64,000 nt of DNA from Thermobrachium celere DSM 8682 (GTDB lineage Bacteria; Bacillota; Clostridia; Clostridiales; Caloramatoraceae), in NCBI RefSeq assembly GCF_000430995.1, contig NZ_HF952018.1, positions 806,386 through 870,385 of the forward strand. The letters are read 5' to 3'. Positions 40,177 to 48,026 of this stretch are shown piece after piece. The notes beneath the pieces were generated by a model. The model was given only the letters and a program-made list of their open reading frames with translations, did not search any database and was not told the origin of the DNA. Position 1 is the stretch's first letter; each line of letters starts with the position of its first letter. A program made the position numbers and the translations under genes.

Positions 40177-40678
40177 AATTACAATTACGAGAATTTTCTT
40201 AGTTCCTGTATTTTTGTTTTTTCTATTAGTCAAAATGCCATATGGTAATTTAACAGCTACATCTATATTTATTATTGCAGCATTAACGGATACTTTAGAT
40301 GGATATATTGCTCGTAGCAGAAATCAGATTACAAAATTCGGAAAATTCTTAGACCCGTTAGCTGACAAATTGATCGTGACTGCAGCCTTAGTTGCTCTTG
40401 TTGAACTAAAGAAAATACCATCATGGCTTGTAATTATTATATTGGCTCGTGAATTTGCAATAACAGGCTTAAGAGCAGTTGCAGCATCTGAAGGAAATGT
40501 AATTGCAGCTAGCAATTGGGGTAAATTAAAAACGATAACTCAAATAATAGCAATAATAGCAGCATTAATTGAAATGAAATTTAACATATATTTAATGTAT
40601 ATAGCTACTATAATAACAATTATATCTGGTATTGATTATATTTATAAGAATAGAAAATTTATAAACTCAAAAGATTGA
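40160..40678 (+). CDS. pgsA: CDP-diacylglycerol-glycerol-3-phosphate 3-phosphatidyltransferase
   Basis: This 172-residue membrane enzyme makes phosphatidylglycerol phosphate from the CDP-diacylglycerol produced by CdsA (12.1 kb). The CDP-alcohol phosphotransferase motif D-G-x2-A-R-x8-G-x3-D-x3-D is intact in LDGYIARSRN and TKFGKFLDPLADKL. Four to five hydrophobic helices. The ATG has AGGAGATG upstream, inside rimO. In B. subtilis cinA separates pgsA from recA; it is absent here. Confidence 0.95.
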   Translation: MNLANKITITRIFLVPVFLFFLLVKMPYGNLTATSIFIIAALTDTLDGYIARSRNQITKFGKFLDPLADKLIVTAALVALVELKKIPSWLVIIILAREFAITGLRAVAASEGNVIAASNWGKLKTITQIIAIIAALIEMKFNIYLMYIATIITIISGIDYIYKNRKFINSKD

Positions 40679-40712
40679 AATAGGACAAACGATTTGTTTG
40701 TCCTATTTATAT
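40678..40712 (+). terminator. Rho-independent terminator of rimO-pgsA
   Basis: AAATAGGACAAAC pairs with GTTTGTCCTATTT (13 bp) around GATTT. The left arm begins at the pgsA stop codon. Confidence 0.82.
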
Positions 40713-40752
40713 TATTCTCAAAATATTACTAAAATGATATTATCAAAAATGA

Positions 40753-40790
40753 TAAAGGTCAACAATAATAAATATTATTGTTGACCTTTA
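40753..40790. repeat. Perfect 17-bp inverted repeat overlapping the recA promoter
   Basis: Arms at 40753-40769 and 40774-40790 (AAAGGTCAACAATAAT with ATTATTGTTGACCTTT at the core) flank a 4-base loop AAAT. The right arm contains the predicted recA -35 element TTGACC. No T-run follows. It could be a second terminator for readthrough from pgsA or an operator. Confidence 0.75.
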
Positions 40791-40809
40791 TAAAATTTTA
40801 TTATATAAT
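40781..40809 (+). promoter_or_regulatory. recA promoter
   Basis: TTGACC (40781-40786) and TATAAT (40804-40809) with an exact 17-base spacer. The LexA box begins 2 bases after the -10, so repressor would cover the transcription start. Confidence 0.82.
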
Positions 40810-40810
40810 A

Positions 40811-40824
40811 AGAACAGATGTTCG
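40811..40824. promoter_or_regulatory. LexA (SOS) box of recA
   Basis: AGAACAGATGTTCG contains GAAC-N4-GTTC, the core of the Gram-positive LexA operator (CGAACNNNNGTTCG), with a single deviation in the outer positions. Confidence 0.85.
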
Positions 40825-40842
40825 GGGAAAGGAAGGATTAAA

Positions 40843-41871
40843 ATGAACGAAAAACAAAAAGCACTAGAATTAGCATTAAGTCAAATAGAAAAACAGTTTG
40901 GTAAAGGTTCAATCATGAAGTTAGGCGAAAATTCTAAATTGAATGTTGAAGCAATATCAACAGGTTCATTAGATTTAGATATAGCATTAGGTATAGGAGG
41001 AGTACCTAGAGGTAGAATAGTTGAAATTTATGGACCTGAGTCTTCAGGTAAGACTACTGTTGCTTTGCATATAATAGCAGAAGCTCAAAAAAATGGGGGT
41101 ACAGCTGCCTTCATAGATGCAGAACATGCACTTGATCCTACATATGCTGCAAAACTAGGTGTAGATGTATCAAATTTAGTTGTATCACAACCAGATACAG
41201 GAGAACAAGCATTAGAAATTGCTGAAGCATTAGTTAGGTCTGGTGCAATTGATGTCATTGTTGTAGATTCAGTCGCTGCACTTGTTCCTAAAGCAGAGAT
41301 TGAAGGTGAAATGGGAGATGCTTTTGTAGGATTACAAGCAAGATTAATGTCACAGGCTTTAAGAAAATTAGCAGGTGCTATAAATAAATCTAAATGTGTG
41401 GCTGTATTTATTAACCAGTTAAGAGAAAAAGTTGGTGTTATGTTTGGTAGTCCTGAAACAACTCCAGGTGGTAGAGCACTTAAATTCTATGCTTCAGTTA
41501 GATTAGATGTAAGAAAGGTTGATTCAATAAAGCAAGGTGAAGATGTTATAGGAAGCAGAACAAGGGTAAAAGTAGTAAAGAATAAAGTTGCTCCACCTTT
41601 TAAACAGGCAGAATTCGATATAATGTATGGCGAAGGAATTTCAAGAGAAGGTAATATACTAGATGTTGCAGTAAATAATAACATTGTTCAAAAGAGTGGT
41701 GCGTGGTTTTCATATAAGGATATAAAATTAGGACAAGGTAGAGAAAATGCTAAAAGTTATTTAAAAGAAAATCCTAATTTAGCATTAGAAATAGAGAATG
41801 CAATAAGACAAAAATATAATTTACCTTTAAATTTACCAGCAAGTTCACAGGATAATAAAAAAGAAGAATAA
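40843..41871 (+). CDS. recA: Recombinase RecA
   Basis: This 342-residue protein forms filaments on single-stranded DNA for strand exchange and stimulates LexA self-cleavage. Walker [10 protein letters not shown] is near residues 65-73. Walker [11 protein letters not shown], the L2 region [19 protein letters not shown] and the C-terminal KYNLPLN are standard. AAAGGAAGG precedes the ATG. LexA-controlled; terminated separately from the recX cluster, though readthrough is plausible. Confidence 0.99.
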
Positions 41872-41929: not shown

Positions 41930-42553
41930 ATGAAAATTACATATATAGAGAAACAAAAAAATAACAGTAATAGATATAATATTTTTGTAGATGGTAACTA
42001 TTGTTTTTCAGCAGAATTAGAGGATATTATAAAATATCAAATTGATATAGATAGAATATTTTCTAAGGAAGAGTTAGAGAAAATAATTGAGAAATGTGAA
42101 ATAAGTAAAGGTTTTAAATATGGATTAAATCTTTTAAGTAATAAAGATTATACAAAAAGTGAAATGTTTGATAAATTAAAAGAGAAGGGATATAGTGATA
42201 ATAGTATAGAAGTTATATTAGATAAATTATGTGAATATGGATTTGTGGATGATATGAAATATGCAGAAAAATTTGCGTACAGAAAAGTAAAATTAAATAA
42301 AATAGGAAAAAAAAGAATTATAAACGATTTAAAAAATAAAGGTATTGAAGCTGAAATATTAGATAAGATACAATTTGATGAAGAAGAAATTTTAAACAAT
42401 GCATATGCTTTACTTATCAAAAAGTTAAAAGGAAATAAAAAAGATAAAGAAAGTCTTCAGAAAGCGATAAGATATTTATATAATAAAGGGTATACTTTTG
42501 AAGAAATAAAAAAGGCTGTATTTAAAATAAATAATGAAATAGATTGGGAGTAG
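41930..42553 (+). CDS. recX: RecA regulator RecX
   Basis: This 207-residue helical-repeat protein modulates RecA filaments. It has the three-helix repeats typical of RecX: LLSNKDYTKSEMFDKLKEKG, CEYGFVDDMKYAEKFAYRKV and IKKLKGN-type motifs. AGAGGTGA precedes the ATG. The next gene starts 5 bases after its stop, so it heads a tight five-gene unit (recX, phosphoesterase, split SbcC). Confidence 0.9.
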   Translation: MKITYIEKQKNNSNRYNIFVDGNYCFSAELEDIIKYQIDIDRIFSKEELEKIIEKCEISKGFKYGLNLLSNKDYTKSEMFDKLKEKGYSDNSIEVILDKLCEYGFVDDMKYAEKFAYRKVKLNKIGKKRIINDLKNKGIEAEILDKIQFDEEEILNNAYALLIKKLKGNKKDKESLQKAIRYLYNKGYTFEEIKKAVFKINNEIDWE

Positions 42554-42558
42554 GTATT

Positions 42559-43548
42559 ATGAAGGTTTTATTTTTTACAGATACACATATAAGAGGAACA
42601 AATCCTAGATCGCGACTAGATGTATTTCAGGATACCTTATATAATAAATTAAATGAAATACTTAACTTTATAAAAGAAAATAAAGTCAATTATGTTATAT
42701 TTGGAGGAGACTTATTAGATAGGCCAGATGTATCGTTATCGGTTATGCAAAGGTTTATCTATCTATTAAATCAATTTCCAAAGCCTATATATATGGTTTT
42801 AGGTAATCATGATATTTATGGACAGAATCCCAATACTGTAAACAGAACAATTATTGGTATTTTAGAAACATTAGGTATAGTTCATATATTAGATAATAAT
42901 CATGTAATTTTAGAAGATGAAGAAATGAAAATTAAAGTAACAGGTGCCAACTATTATTATGATATTGATGTTGATATAAATAAGGAGAAATATATATCCA
43001 AAAACAAAGATGGATGTGATTATTTAATTCATGTTGTACATGGTATGTTAATGGAAAAATCGTTTATTAAGGAGGTACCTCATACTTTAATTGATGACAT
43101 TTTTAGTATGACTGAGGCAGATATTACATTATGTGGACATTATCATACTGGTTATGGAGCTTTAAAAATTAACGATAAATATTTTGTAAATCCTGGAGCG
43201 CTTGTTAGAATTAATAATAGTCTTTCGGAAATAAAAAGAAGTCCTTCTTTTGCTGTTATTAATTTAGAAAAAAATAATATAGAGATAAGTATTGAAAAAT
43301 TAAAGACAGCTCCAGAGGGAGAATTAGTTATAGATAGAAGTTTTGTCAAAGAACAGGCACAAAGAGAAGTAATATTAAATAAAATAATTCAATCGGTAAA
43401 TAGTTACGGAGAATTCGAGATGTTAAGTATAAATCAAATTGTAGAAGAAATAGCAAGAAAAGAAGCAATACCTGATGAAATAAAAAAAGAGGCACTTGAT
43501 AGGTTATCGAGAGCACACTTACTTTTATCAAATGAGGTGGTAGATTGA
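42559..43548 (+). CDS. SbcD/Mre11-like metallophosphoesterase
   Basis: This 329-residue calcineurin-like phosphoesterase has the complete metal set: FTDTHIRG (Asp8, His10), GGDLLDRP (Asp51), GNHD (83-85 region) and GHYHTGYG. A C-terminal region after about 215 has helices rich in charged residues where Mre11 binds Rad50. RGTNPRSR after the first motif recalls SbcD-like proteins of phages (from memory, not searched). The ATG at 42559 is favoured by GGGAGTAGG upstream; the in-frame TTG at 42544 lies inside recX. Its TGA overlaps the next gene's TTG start. Predicted nuclease partner of the downstream ATPase halves. Confidence 0.85.
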   Translation: MKVLFFTDTHIRGTNPRSRLDVFQDTLYNKLNEILNFIKENKVNYVIFGGDLLDRPDVSLSVMQRFIYLLNQFPKPIYMVLGNHDIYGQNPNTVNRTIIGILETLGIVHILDNNHVILEDEEMKIKVTGANYYYDIDVDINKEKYISKNKDGCDYLIHVVHGMLMEKSFIKEVPHTLIDDIFSMTEADITLCGHYHTGYGALKINDKYFVNPGALVRINNSLSEIKRSPSFAVINLEKNNIEISIEKLKTAPEGELVIDRSFVKEQAQREVILNKIIQSVNSYGEFEMLSINQIVEEIARKEAIPDEIKKEALDRLSRAHLLLSNEVVD

Positions 43549-44975
43549 TATATATAAAATCAATTGAAATAGAAAATTTTCAATCCCATGAGTTTACTAA
43601 AATTGATTTTAGTAGTAATTTGAATGTTATTGTAGGACCATCGGACAATGGCAAATCAGCTATAATAAGAGCTTTAAAATGGGTATTGTTTAATGAACCC
43701 AAAGGAACAGAATTTATTCGTTTTGGGGCTTCTTATTGCAGAGTTTCAATTGTTTTGTCTAATGGTATAAAAATAATTAGGGAAAGGACAAAATCTAAAA
43801 ATCTTTATAAATTAATAGAAGGCGAAAATGAGACAATATATGAGGGTTTTGGAAATGATATACCTTTAGAAATACTTGAAGCACATAAAATAAAGAAAAT
43901 ACAAATAGATAAAGATACTAATATTTGTTTAAATATCTCTGAGCAATTGGAAGGACCTTTTTTGTTAAGCCAGCCAAATTCATATAAGTCAAAAGCTATA
44001 GGAAGGATTGTTGGACTTCACATAATTGATGAGGCAATAAAGGAGATCAATAGAGAAATTAGCTCAATACAGTTTGAAAAAAGAAATTTAAAAGATGACT
44101 TAGATAAACTAGATAAACAAATAAAAGATTTAGAATATATTTATGATCTAGAAGATTTAATATTAAAAAAAGAAACATTAATTAAAAAAATTCAAGATAA
44201 GCTTGATTTGTTAGACAAACTAAAATATTATAAAGAACTAATAAATCAAATTGATCGAGAAATTGATTATGAAGAGAGTTTGGTTAGTGAATTAAGAAAA
44301 ATAGAGAAAATAGACTTGGAATTATTAGAAGTAAAAGTTTATAATTATACTAATTCTACAAAGCTTTTAAAAAATATGAAATTATTAGCAAAAGAAATTA
44401 AGAATCAAAAAGATATATTAAACAATACAAGTAATTTAGAACATATAGAAATAAAGCTTAAGATCCTTGAAAATTATTTAAAAAAGTATATAGACATCAT
44501 AGATTATTATAAAAAATATAAGCTAATTGAAAATGAAATAGAGAATAATAGAATAATAGAAATTGAAACTAAAAATGTACAAGAAATAAATAATATATTG
44601 GTTAGATTAGAAAAAGTAATAAGCAAATATAGTGCATTAAGTGATAAATATCAACAATTAAATCTATGTATTAATTCAATAAATAAAGGTAATGAATATA
44701 TGAAAAAATTCCGTTATCAAGAAGAATGCCAGAATAAAATAGTTAATATAGAAAAACTCTATAATGTATTAATTAATATTATTACACTTAAAAAAGATTT
44801 TGATATGATAGAAAAGGAATTTAAAGCTGTAGAACAGAATTACAAAGATTGTTCTCAAAACATATATAATCTAACAGAAGAATATAAGAATATTTTAAAA
44901 AATATTTCTGTGTGTCCTTTGTGTGGAAGTGATATTGATGAATTAAAAATAGATAAGATACTAGAATCAATTTAA
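43545..44975 (+). CDS. SbcC/Rad50-like ATPase, N-terminal half ending in a zinc-hook-like motif
   Basis: This 476-residue protein starts IKSIEIENFQSHEFTKIDFS, the classic SbcC/RecF N-lobe. Walker A GPSDNGKSA is at residues 31-38, and a Q-loop LLSQP lies near 142. Residues about 165-450 are charged, heptad-like helical sequence. The protein ends with CPLCG at 457-461, matching the Rad50/SbcC CxxC zinc hook, only 16 residues from the C-terminus. It has no signature motif, Walker B or H-loop; these are in the separate protein at 45251-45907. The TTG start has GAGGTGG upstream and overlaps the previous stop (TTGA). Confidence 0.85.
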   Translation: MIYIKSIEIENFQSHEFTKIDFSSNLNVIVGPSDNGKSAIIRALKWVLFNEPKGTEFIRFGASYCRVSIVLSNGIKIIRERTKSKNLYKLIEGENETIYEGFGNDIPLEILEAHKIKKIQIDKDTNICLNISEQLEGPFLLSQPNSYKSKAIGRIVGLHIIDEAIKEINREISSIQFEKRNLKDDLDKLDKQIKDLEYIYDLEDLILKKETLIKKIQDKLDLLDKLKYYKELINQIDREIDYEESLVSELRKIEKIDLELLEVKVYNYTNSTKLLKNMKLLAKEIKNQKDILNNTSNLEHIEIKLKILENYLKKYIDIIDYYKKYKLIENEIENNRIIEIETKNVQEINNILVRLEKVISKYSALSDKYQQLNLCINSINKGNEYMKKFRYQEECQNKIVNIEKLYNVLINIITLKKDFDMIEKEFKAVEQNYKDCSQNIYNLTEEYKNILKNISVCPLCGSDIDELKIDKILESI

Positions 44976-44998
44976 TTATAGTGAGGAGGAATATAAAA

Positions 44999-45238
44999 AT
45001 GATAAACTATGAAGATAAATTAAATGAGCTAAAGAAAAAATTAGAATATGCTAAAAATAAAAGAATTAAAGCAGAAACAAGATTGGAACAATTGCAATTA
45101 CAAAAAAACGAAATTATGAACGAAATAAAAAAGTTAGGTTTTGAACCTGATAACTTAGAAAATGAAATTAAAAGCTTAGAAGATGAAATTGTAAAACTTA
45201 TAAATGAAGCAGAATCCTTAATGCCAAGGGATATATAA
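44999..45238 (+). CDS. Small charged coiled-coil protein between the SbcC halves (79 aa)
   Basis: The protein is not recognised as a named family. It begins MINYEDKLNELKKKLEYAKN and is almost entirely predicted helix with heptad spacing, ending ESLMPRDI. GAGGAGGA at 44983-44990 places the start at the ATG at 44999. An in-frame GTG at 44981 is just upstream of that site. It lies 23 bases after the N-half gene and 12 before the C-half gene, so it may pair with their coiled coils (inference). There is no Cys and no membrane segment. Confidence 0.8.
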   Translation: MINYEDKLNELKKKLEYAKNKRIKAETRLEQLQLQKNEIMNEIKKLGFEPDNLENEIKSLEDEIVKLINEAESLMPRDI

Positions 45239-45250
45239 TAAGGTGATTTT

Positions 45251-45907
45251 ATGTGGAGAGAAAAAATACAGAACTTAAATAAAAGTTTAAATCAAGAGAA
45301 AGAAATTTATTATCAACTCAAAGGTAAATTAGATACATTAAATAATGAAAAAATAAAATTAAATGAAAAGATGGAAATTTTAGATAAAAAAGAATTGACG
45401 TTATTAGAAACTAGAAGGTTGTTACAGAGTGTATCTGAATATGCAAGAAATCAATCAAAGCAACAAATAGAATATATAGTAACCAATTGCTTACAATATA
45501 TATTTAACTCTAATATTGAATTTAAAATAGAGTTAAATGAAAAAGCAAATCGTAATGAAGCTGATTTTTATGTTATTACTCCTCTTGATAATGGACAAAA
45601 TGTGGTAACAAGACCAGAGGTTTCAAGAGGAGGGGGAGTTGTTGATATTGTATCCTTAGCGTTAAGAATTGCCCTTTTAGAAGCTCATAATCCAAAGATT
45701 AATGGTCCTTTGATCTTAGATGAACCTGCTAAACATGTAAGTGATGATTTTATAATAAATGTTGCAGAGTTTTTGAAACAGGTATCTAATATGTTTAAAA
45801 GACAGATAATTATGGTTACACATAATACCCATTTACTTGAATCAGCTGATAAAAAGTATAAGGTTGAATTGATTGACAATGTAAGTACTGTTACCCCTCT
45901 AACTTGA
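45251..45907 (+). CDS. SbcC/Rad50-like ATPase, C-terminal half
   Basis: This 218-residue protein supplies the ABC-ATPase parts missing from 43545-44975. The signature-like EVSRGGGVVDIVSLALRI is at about 123-140. Walker B PLILDEP is at 153-159 and the H-loop VTHNTH at 189-194. The first ~70 residues are helical and charged (only about 60 residues of coil). AAGGTGA precedes the ATG. With the N-half it would make one SbcC-type ATPase head. It is the last gene before the rny promoter, whose TTGACA overlaps its stop codon. Confidence 0.85.
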   Translation: MWREKIQNLNKSLNQEKEIYYQLKGKLDTLNNEKIKLNEKMEILDKKELTLLETRRLLQSVSEYARNQSKQQIEYIVTNCLQYIFNSNIEFKIELNEKANRNEADFYVITPLDNGQNVVTRPEVSRGGGVVDIVSLALRIALLEAHNPKINGPLILDEPAKHVSDDFIINVAEFLKQVSNMFKRQIIMVTHNTHLLESADKKYKVELIDNVSTVTPLT

Positions 45908-45998: not shown

Positions 45999-46065
45999 TT
46001 TTACTTAAAAAATAACAAATATATGATAAATTAAGTTTAATTTTTTTGACGTTTTGAGGGAGGTG

Positions 46066-47613
46066 TTGTGTATTAGTACTCTTGTATGGCTATTATTAAT
46101 TGGAGCAACAGGTATTATAGCCTTTATGCTAGGCTATTTTATTAGAAAAAATATATCTGAAAAGAAGATTCAATCTGCTGAAGAATTAGCTAAAAAAATA
46201 GTTTCTGATGCAGAAAAAGAAGCTGAATCAAAAAAGAAGGAAGCAATAATTGAAGCTAGAGAAGAAGTTCATAAGCTTAGAAATGAGTTTGACAAGGAAG
46301 TAAGAGAAAGAAGAAATGAACTTCAAAGAATGGAAAGAAGATTAATATTAAGAGAGGAGACTCTCGATAAAAAGGTTGAAGCATTAGAAGCAAGAGAGGA
46401 AAATTTAACTAAAAAACAACAGGAAATACAAGAATTACAGGAACAATTAAATGAGGTTTACAAGAAACAAATTCAAGAGCTTGAAAGAATAGCAAATTTA
46501 ACAACAGAGGAAGCAAAAGAAATTATTTTAAGCAATGTTAGAGAAGAAGTTAAACATGATGCAGCAATGCTTATAAAAGAAATTGAAACAAAAGCAAAGG
46601 AAGAAGCCGATAAAAAAGCGAGAGAGATAATTGCTTGTGCTATTCAAAGATGTGCTGCAGATCATGTTGCTGAGACAACAGTTTCAGTTGTAAACCTACC
46701 TAACGATGAAATGAAAGGTAGGATAATAGGAAGAGAAGGTAGAAATATTCGAACATTAGAAACATTAACAGGAATTGATCTTATAATTGATGATACTCCT
46801 GAAGCTGTTATTTTATCAGGTTTTGATCCAATTAGAAGGGAAGTTGCTCGTTTAGCGTTAGAAAAGCTTATTGCAGATGGTAGAATACATCCTGCAAGAA
46901 TTGAAGAGATGGTGGAAAAGGCAAAGAAAGAAGTTGAAAATGATATTCGAGAACAAGGTGAACAAGCTACTTTTGAAACAGGTGTACATGGTTTACATAG
47001 CGAACTAATAAAGTTGCTAGGTAGATTAAAGTATAGAACAAGTTATGGACAAAATGTTTTAAAGCATTCAATTGAGGTTGCATATTTAGCAGGATTAATG
47101 GCTGCAGAATTAGGTGCAGATGTTGCTTTAGCAAAGAGAGCAGGTTTATTACATGATATAGGTAAAGCATTAGATCATGAAATAGAAGGACCTCATGCTA
47201 TGATAGGTGGAGATATACTAAAGAAATATAATGAATCTCCAGCAGTTATACATGCGGTTTCAGCACACCATGGTGATATAGAGCCTCAAACAATTGAAGC
47301 TATTCTTGTTCAGGCTGCAGATGCAATTTCAGCTGCTAGACCTGGAGCAAGAAGAGAAACACTTGAGGCATATATAAAGAGATTAGAAAAATTAGAAGAA
47401 ATAGCTGATTCTTTTGATGGTGTTGAAAAATCATATGCTATTCAAGCAGGTAGAGAGATTAGAATAATGGTAAAACCAGAACAAATTTCTGATGCTGATG
47501 CTATACAAATGGCAAGGGATATAGTAAAAAGAATTGAAAGTGAGTTAGAATATCCAGGTCAAATTAAAGTTAATGTAATAAGAGAAGTTAGAGCTATAGA
47601 ATATGCAAAATAA
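46066..47613 (+). CDS. rny: Ribonuclease Y
   Basis: This roughly 515-residue membrane-anchored endoribonuclease starts bulk mRNA decay. An N-terminal membrane helix ([19 protein letters not shown]) is followed by a long coiled coil (about 30-195). A KH domain ([17 protein letters not shown]) and an HD domain ([28 protein letters not shown]) follow. The start is uncertain: GAGGGAGGTG at 46056-46065 leaves only 2 bases between GGAGG and TTG at 46066. The best-spaced in-frame codon is ATT at 46072. No in-frame ATG precedes the membrane helix. Confidence 0.95.
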
Positions 47614-47645
47614 TAGGACAGTTTATTACTGTCCTATTTTTAGTT
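47612..47645 (+). terminator. Rho-independent terminator of rny
   Basis: AATAGGACAG and CTGTCCTATT form a 10-bp stem around a 7-base loop, followed by TTTAGTTTTTTG. It overlaps the rny stop codon. Confidence 0.85.
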
Positions 47646-47692
47646 TTTTGTCTTAGATTTTTGGAATTATTAAATTATTTAACAATTTTAAG

Positions 47693-47718
47693 AAGGATTT
47701 TTTTAATTTATGTAGAAT
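47693..47718 (+). promoter_or_regulatory. Candidate sigma-H promoter for spoVS
   Basis: AAGGATTT (47693-47700), 14 bases, then GAAT (47715-47718). This element pair and spacing resemble the B. subtilis spoVG sigma-H promoter as I remember it. spoVS is a known sigma-H target in B. subtilis. Confidence 0.5.
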
Positions 47719-47765
47719 ATAGAATTATGAGAAAATAATAAGCAACTTTAAGGAGGTACTAAAAC

Positions 47766-48026
47766 ATGGAAGTATTAAAGGTTTCAGCAAAATCAAATCC
47801 AAATTCTGTAGCAGGTGCTTTAGCAGGTGTTGTAAGGGAAAAAGGTGTTGCAGAGATGCAGGCTATAGGTGCAGGTGCTATTAATCAAGCTATAAAGGCT
47901 GTTGCAATTGCAAGAGGATATGTAGCACCAAGTGGAATTGATTTAATATGCATCCCTGCATTTACTGATGTTAATATTGATGGTGAAGAAAGAACAGCAA
48001 TAAAGTTTATTGTTCAGCCAAGATAA
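47766..48026 (+). CDS. spoVS: Stage V sporulation protein S
   Basis: This 86-residue Alba-fold-like protein is needed for normal spore coat assembly and septation timing in B. subtilis. It is highly conserved: EVLKVSAKSNPNSVAGALAG, and IDLICIPAFTDVNIDGEERTA (split here as IDLICIPAFT and DVNIDGEERTA). AAGGAGGT precedes the ATG. It follows rny as in B. subtilis but without ymdB in between. Its presence supports a spore-forming host. Confidence 0.96.
   Translation: MEVLKVSAKSNPNSVAGALAGVVREKGVAEMQAIGAGAINQAIKAVAIARGYVAPSGIDLICIPAFTDVNIDGEERTAIKFIVQPR

Follow-up and report, generated by a model that had tools for sequence, protein, structure and literature searches.

A putative Mre11-Rad50-like module with a divided Rad50 beside recA in Thermobrachium celere DSM 8682

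A stretch of 64,000 nucleotides from Thermobrachium celere DSM 8682 (contig NZ_HF952018.1, positions 806,386 to 870,385 of the forward strand; referred to as the window) contains four plus-strand genes 3' of recA-recX, at positions 42559-45907, which encode an Mre11-type phosphoesterase nuclease (MPE), an N-terminal part of Rad50 (N-part), a small helical protein (MID) and a C-terminal part of Rad50 (C-part). We consider it very probable that these proteins form an Mre11-Rad50 (SbcCD-like) DNA-end-processing complex in which Rad50 is assembled from separate polypeptides. Comparative sequence analysis establishes the four parts, their homology, their co-conservation and linkage as well as a mutual exclusion with SbcD. 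The first-pass annotation, made from the letters of the window, had proposed a split Mre11/Rad50-like module adjoining recA-recX, and this proposal is supported by the open reading frames, by homology and by the conserved gene order in relatives. The four open reading frames are as it described them, and its gaps of 5, -4, 23 and 12 bases were all correct.

42559..43548, + strand: MPE, Mre11/SbcD-type calcineurin-like phosphoesterase, 329 amino acids (aa); Pfam Metallophos 1.2e-16
43545..44975, + strand: N-part, Rad50 lobe I, helical arm and terminal CxxC, 476 aa; AAA_23 2.1e-13
43635..43658, + strand: Walker A GPSDNGKS in the N-part, residues 31-38, from the translation
44913..44924, + strand: CPLC zinc-hook-like motif, C-terminal in the N-part; Pfam Rad50_zn_hook 0.0094, below cut-off
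44999..45238, + strand: MID, helical hairpin protein, 79 aa; PHROG 18563
45251..45907, + strand: C-part, short helix and Rad50 lobe II, 218 aa; PDB Rad50 C-terminal chains
45623..45637, + strand: SRGGG signature-like motif in the C-part, aligned to SGGE of Rad50
45710..45724, + strand: Walker B LILDE in the C-part
45821..45823, + strand: H-loop histidine H191 (VTHN) in the C-part

Homology, motifs and models of the four proteins

Each gene has its own start. The N-part begins with TTG, overlapping the MPE stop codon as TTGA, MID starts 23 bases after the N-part and is preceded by its own Shine-Dalgarno-like GAGGAGG, and the C-part starts 12 bases after MID, with which it shares the reading frame in the window. 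The C-terminus of the N-part carries CPLCG about 20 residues from its end, a motif that the first-pass annotation had overlooked, and the break therefore falls just behind the hook-like motif.

A profile built from ten MPE relatives matches Mre11 structures 1ii7 and 4hd0 in the PDB. Residues D8, H10, D51, N83, H84, H161, H194 and H196 are invariant in the 10 relatives and correspond to the active site of Pyrococcus Mre11. In a profile search MPE scored 32 bits against NCBIfam sbcd (TIGR00619), whose cut-off is 77.65, and the SbcD C-terminal domain was not among its Pfam matches. What had been called an SbcD-like phosphoesterase is thus of Mre11 type by Pfam, PDB and active site, but not a canonical SbcD.

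The search of both ATPase halves against known families, proposed in the first-pass annotation, matched Rad50 lobes in the PDB and phage families. A profile of ten relatives of the N-part finds N-terminal Rad50 chains, e.g. 1f2t_A, while the corresponding C-part profile matches the C-terminal chains 3qkr_B, 1ii8_B and 1f2t_B. Near full-length matches were obtained to PHROG 16465 ('exonuclease', 1.3e-70) for the N-part, to PHROG 18563 (annotated as of unknown function, 1.2e-6) for MID, whose identity across 10 loci is 32-81%, and to PHROG 15167 ('ATPase', 2.4e-55) for the C-part. In Pfam and NCBIfam the ATPase parts were matched only partially or below cut-off, N by AAA_23 and C by SMC_N, the latter below threshold.

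The ATPase motifs are spread over two proteins, the N-part being without Walker B and the C-part without Walker A. Walker A residues G31, S33, D34, G36 and K37 are invariant among N-part relatives, as are C457, P458 and C460 of the hook-like motif. The Walker B Asp-Glu pair is invariant in 126/126 C-parts (57 chromosomal and 69 viral), and the H-loop His in 57/57 chromosomal and 66/69 viral copies. The proposed distribution of Walker A in one half and signature, Walker B and H-loop in the other therefore stands, except that the signature is SRGGG rather than SGGE/Q. GGG occurs in all 57 chromosomal C-parts, 54 of which have Arg where Rad50 has Ser; [AS]RGGG is found in 52/57, as opposed to SGGE in Rad50, and viral C-parts mostly have Ser or Arg at this position. 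CxxC lies near the C-terminus of the N-part in 139/140 copies, with the chain ending within 45 residues after it in 56/56 chromosomal and within 30 residues in 83/84 viral N-parts.

At one locus (L009) N, MID and C lie in one frame, and the read-through chain was modelled with AlphaFold2 as a stand-in for the complex, using full-length anchor rows in the alignment and dropping MID-only rows. The model reached a mean predicted local distance difference test score (pLDDT) of 76 and a predicted template modelling score (pTM) of 0.50, with the head mostly at pLDDT 80-96; MID is poorly modelled, since the anchor rows read it out of frame. The Foldseek alignments of the model span both N and C and are to complete heads of Rad50 (3qkt, target-normalised template modelling score, TMt, 0.69; 3av0, 0.67; 3qku, 0.66). 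A model of N and MID without C (L010) gave a pTM of 0.31 and did not place MID. Residues 121-160 of lobe I show pLDDT 61-77 with C and 32-47 without C, a comparison that is only suggestive as sequence and alignment differ. Predictions give the N arm six helices, running up to CxxC, and fold MID into a two-helix hairpin. Taken from homology and modelling, the formation of one ATP-binding cassette (ABC) ATPase head by N and C is well supported.

In the Pyrococcus Rad50 crystals (1f2t_A/_B, 1ii8_A/_B) two chains, lobe I and lobe II, form one head as well; this two-chain Rad50 is a laboratory construct, while the division in the present module is natural. To our knowledge, Rad50 and SMC ATPases are otherwise single chains folding back on themselves.

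Conservation of the module and its relation to SbcCD

We sampled 391 Clostridia and 350 Bacilli genomes (genomes and loci are given below by running G and L numbers where needed). A strong C-part match was found in 28 of the Clostridia, all 28 of which also have the N-part, and in 44 of the Bacilli. This survey for co-occurrence, suggested by the first-pass annotation, also located the usual site of the module between recA and rny, with the order recA-(recX)-MPE-N-MID-C-rny in Clostridia and Bacilli, and with four separate genes in the same order kept in Caloramator, Peptoniphilaceae and Halalkalibacter as well as in dozens of further genomes and viral contigs. The cluster had been regarded as an insertion into the gene backbone; it is not specific to this genome, the order being common to both classes. 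All 49 chromosomal loci that hold N and C have MPE as well; 47 have MID, 44 have recA and 37 have rny. One of the two loci without MID (L011) comes from a frameshift-rich assembly, the complete genome of Caloramator sp. mosi_1; many frameshifts are found there across the region including recA, which looks like sequencing error.

All 7 sampled genomes of one family (f54) carry N and C at separate chromosomal sites: MPE-N-MID lies before rimO-pgsA, and a lone C is flanked by a folD-like gene and rny, its distance from MPE-N-MID being 168 kb to 1.1 Mb in the single-contig genomes. Because N and C occupy separate loci in this family, frameshift, read-through and assembly error are excluded. A fused gene in close relatives had been named as the observation that would point to such errors, and no N-C fusion occurs at any locus examined; the open frames that hold the strong C-part matches, from 72 genomes, do not exceed 284 aa. 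The division is genuine and ancient. Two proteins of 564-566 aa in G080 and G254 (L082, L083), C-part-like at E ~1e-12, apparently belong to another ATPase family and were left out.

Canonical SbcD over cut-off is present in 1/28 module-bearing Clostridia versus 173/363 others (p = 1.2e-6); counted by genus, the figures are about 1/17 with and 117/206 without the module (p = 4e-5). For Bacilli we found SbcD in 4/44 genomes with the module versus 26/36 without it (p = 5e-9), the 36 controls not being randomly drawn. SbcC as judged by PF13558 occurs in 2/28 Clostridia with the module versus 190/363 others, and one of these two matches, a frame of 1397 aa, possibly encodes a different SMC-like protein. 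In the T. celere genome itself, which the first-pass annotation had suggested checking for a full-length sbcCD elsewhere, a profile search found no SbcC (TIGR00618/PF13558) or SbcD (TIGR00619) over cut-off. Judged from these profile matches, the split module apparently stands in for SbcCD in most cases instead of supplementing it. In T. celere an AddB-like gene scoring 151.9 bits, under the cut-off, is present too, so that end processing there would not depend on the module alone.

Canonical SbcC is one long chain of about 900-1200 aa, whereas the parts found here measure 476, 79 and 218 aa. The module shares with SbcCD and archaeal Mre11-Rad50 the Mre11-type nuclease motifs, Rad50 lobes I and II, CxxC and adjacent genes for nuclease and ATPase. 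It differs from them in a Rad50 made of three polypeptides, a hook-like motif at a C-terminus, the extra subunit MID, the [AS]RGGG signature of the chromosomal copies and an MPE below the SbcD cut-off.

In the window the flanking genes are the following.

40843..41871, + strand: recA, conserved neighbour
41930..42553, + strand: recX, directly upstream of MPE with a 5-base gap; Pfam RecX domains
46054..47613, + strand: rny, conserved downstream neighbour, by gene order

Two genes common in relatives are absent here: one of about 413 aa in the pgsA-recA interval (40678-40843), probably cinA, and one of 260-290 aa in the rny-spoVS interval (47613-47766), probably ymdB, both judged mainly by position and length.

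Viral copies, fusions and NurA-HerA neighbours

In two scans of viral contigs the C-part was found at 6 loci, and the 80 best of 318 N-part candidates were retained. Separate genes for MPE, N and C, and for a MID-like protein about 80 aa long, are present at most viral loci. With a rebuilt MID profile, a MID-like frame adjoins C in 62/75 viral loci and mostly lies slightly further upstream of C in the remaining ones, some of these matches being weak. Unfused viral N-parts measure 285-540 aa; N arms reaching 640 aa, which had been considered, were rejected since the 'N' proteins of 707-805 aa are MPE-N fusions. In Bacillus phage vB_BboS-125, gp32, gp34 and gp35 are full-length homologues annotated 'exonuclease' and 'ATPase', and a homing-endonuclease-like gene with an AP2 domain lies between N and MID (L023:5011-5583). 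Intervening frames of similar size were seen in some viral relatives. The phage families PHROG 16465, 18563 and 15167 thus have the same order and separate genes as full-length homologues of N, MID and C, but are annotated singly, not as one system. A RecA-like gene lies within the fetched stretch in 50/86 viral loci (L101-L186), a count without a control set.

A quick, unrooted tree of C-parts keeps viral and chromosomal copies apart with few exceptions (minimum 3 changes) and shows Bacilli, Clostridia and NurA-HerA-type groups. With transfer possible in either direction on this tree, the word insertion should not be taken to mean a recent local event.

Fusions of MPE and N occur at six viral loci (L101, L103, L104, L110, L118, L129) and in one Bacilli genome (G591, L223:7008-9821), at a locus that matches a 721,710-base Aneurinibacillus plasmid; among the fusions seen, MPE fuses only to N. 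L104/L108, of 218,948 bases, is presumably Bacillus phage 0305phi8-36. An SbcDC fusion has been described in that phage, with one SbcC P-loop segment 'not observed' (Yoshida et al. 2011, PMC3175470). The fusions of that report resemble ours at the six viral loci and in G591 in being MPE-N without lobe II, and differ in that the missing lobe II is here a separate C gene; the segment missing from the 0305phi8-36 fusion is likely lobe II encoded in such a gene.

In four genomes (G019, G433, G547, G569) the module stands beside genes for proteins of 333-357 aa and 610-621 aa, which are NurA and HerA by Pfam in G019, G433 and G569.

L221:854-4720: NurA-HerA beside MPE-N-MID-C, by Pfam
L224:461-4693: NurA-HerA beside MPE-N-MID-C, by Pfam
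L075:3308-9358: NurA-HerA beside MPE-N-MID-C, by Pfam
L225:8478-12402: NurA-HerA beside MPE-N-MID-C, by gene size and position

Linkage of HerA, NurA, Mre11 and Rad50 genes is known from archaea (PMC2288612). The arrangement here is similar in placing NurA-HerA next to MPE-N-MID-C, and differs in its bacterial hosts, its split Rad50 and its restriction to a minority of genomes. Directly behind the split module at L221:7532-11871 we also observed a second phosphoesterase together with an AAA_27 protein (436 and 1012 aa), which in size and domains resemble YhaO/YhaN.

Proposed mechanism and alternative explanations

In the mechanism we propose, lobe I of the N-part and lobe II of the C-part would pair into one ABC-ATPase head, as homology and the model suggest, and two such heads would dimerise on ATP with an MPE nuclease dimer at the base of the complex. 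The CxxC motifs would pair the arms through zinc, and MID would probably serve on the arm as an obligate structural subunit, perhaps stabilising the arm itself or the point where it joins C. The complex would trim blocked or broken DNA ends and hand them to RecA for loading. Several points weigh against this proposal. The head model is a single read-through chain in which the proximity of N and C is imposed, and its pTM is only 0.50. The return arm, consisting of MID and about 60 aa of C, falls short of the N arm in length, with far fewer helical residues on the C side; arm topology and hook position, including any placement of CxxC at an apex, are therefore uncertain. Arg in place of Ser in the chromosomal signature, as read from the alignment, means that the ATP chemistry may differ. 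Furthermore, correction for phylogeny is only partial in the statistics on SbcD exclusion, and G227 (= G394), G391, G432, G574 and G591 carry canonical SbcD besides the module.

A broken or mis-sequenced sbcC, or a protein fused by programmed frameshift or read-through, is an explanation that we give almost no credence, although N, MID and C together resemble one SbcC and MID and C share a frame in the window. The separate starts and the GAGGAGG before MID, frames that vary freely among relatives, genes lying between the parts in phages such as the AP2 gene of vB_BboS-125, the short C-part frames and above all the distant loci of f54 rule out both artefact and programmed fusion. It is also very improbable that N-MID and C serve different machines, with MPE-N-MID acting alone and C as a stand-alone regulator. 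The separately encoded C of f54 and the fusion of MPE to N only would fit such an arrangement, but each part lacks a Walker motif that the other holds, N and C co-occur in 28/28 genomes, and the pLDDT of lobe I residues 121-160 falls without C, which is only suggestive given the other sequence and alignment.

Weak PADLOC matches to LmuB, GajA and mad3, the frequency of the module in viral contigs and its presence on some large plasmids would be in line with a defence or mobile-element ATPase-nuclease of Lamassu or Gabija type that settled beside recA. We regard this as improbable in view of the core site recA-(recX)-rny kept across two classes, the apparent replacement of SbcD, and the Mre11-like nuclease and NurA-HerA partners; membership in Lamassu or Gabija itself was rejected, the PADLOC matches being partial and weak only and the partner being Mre11-like in a repair locus. 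Finally, a complex built like Mre11-Rad50 might mainly control replication forks or recombination together with RecA instead of processing break ends. The recA/recX location and the uncontrolled count of RecA-like genes at viral loci speak for such a role, which we consider unlikely, as the NurA-HerA neighbours and the SbcD replacement point to end processing.

In summary, an Mre11-Rad50-like end-processing complex with a naturally divided Rad50 remains our preferred reading; the system is widespread, broader than first proposed and apparently unrecognised. A search of mainly open-access literature, in which few subscription papers were covered, turned up no account of a split SbcC. Evenly balanced in our judgement is the wider proposal that MPE, N, MID and C constitute an obligate four-subunit Mre11-Rad50 branch, common to phages and Bacillota, that displaced chromosomal SbcCD, with a modified signature, a dedicated MID and a head that closes only when two proteins meet, making assembly a possible control point.

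A natural Rad50 cut behind the hook-like motif, even with its parts at distant loci, would separate what is necessarily covalent in this protein from what is dispensably so, and would provide a compact system for probing the parts that lobe pairing, arm zipping and the hook play in controlling DNA-end processing. Many Clostridia and Bacilli seem to be SbcCD-negative, and the module is a candidate for the end-processing enzyme missing from them; it may also account for the lobe-less 'SbcDC fusion' reported in a phage.

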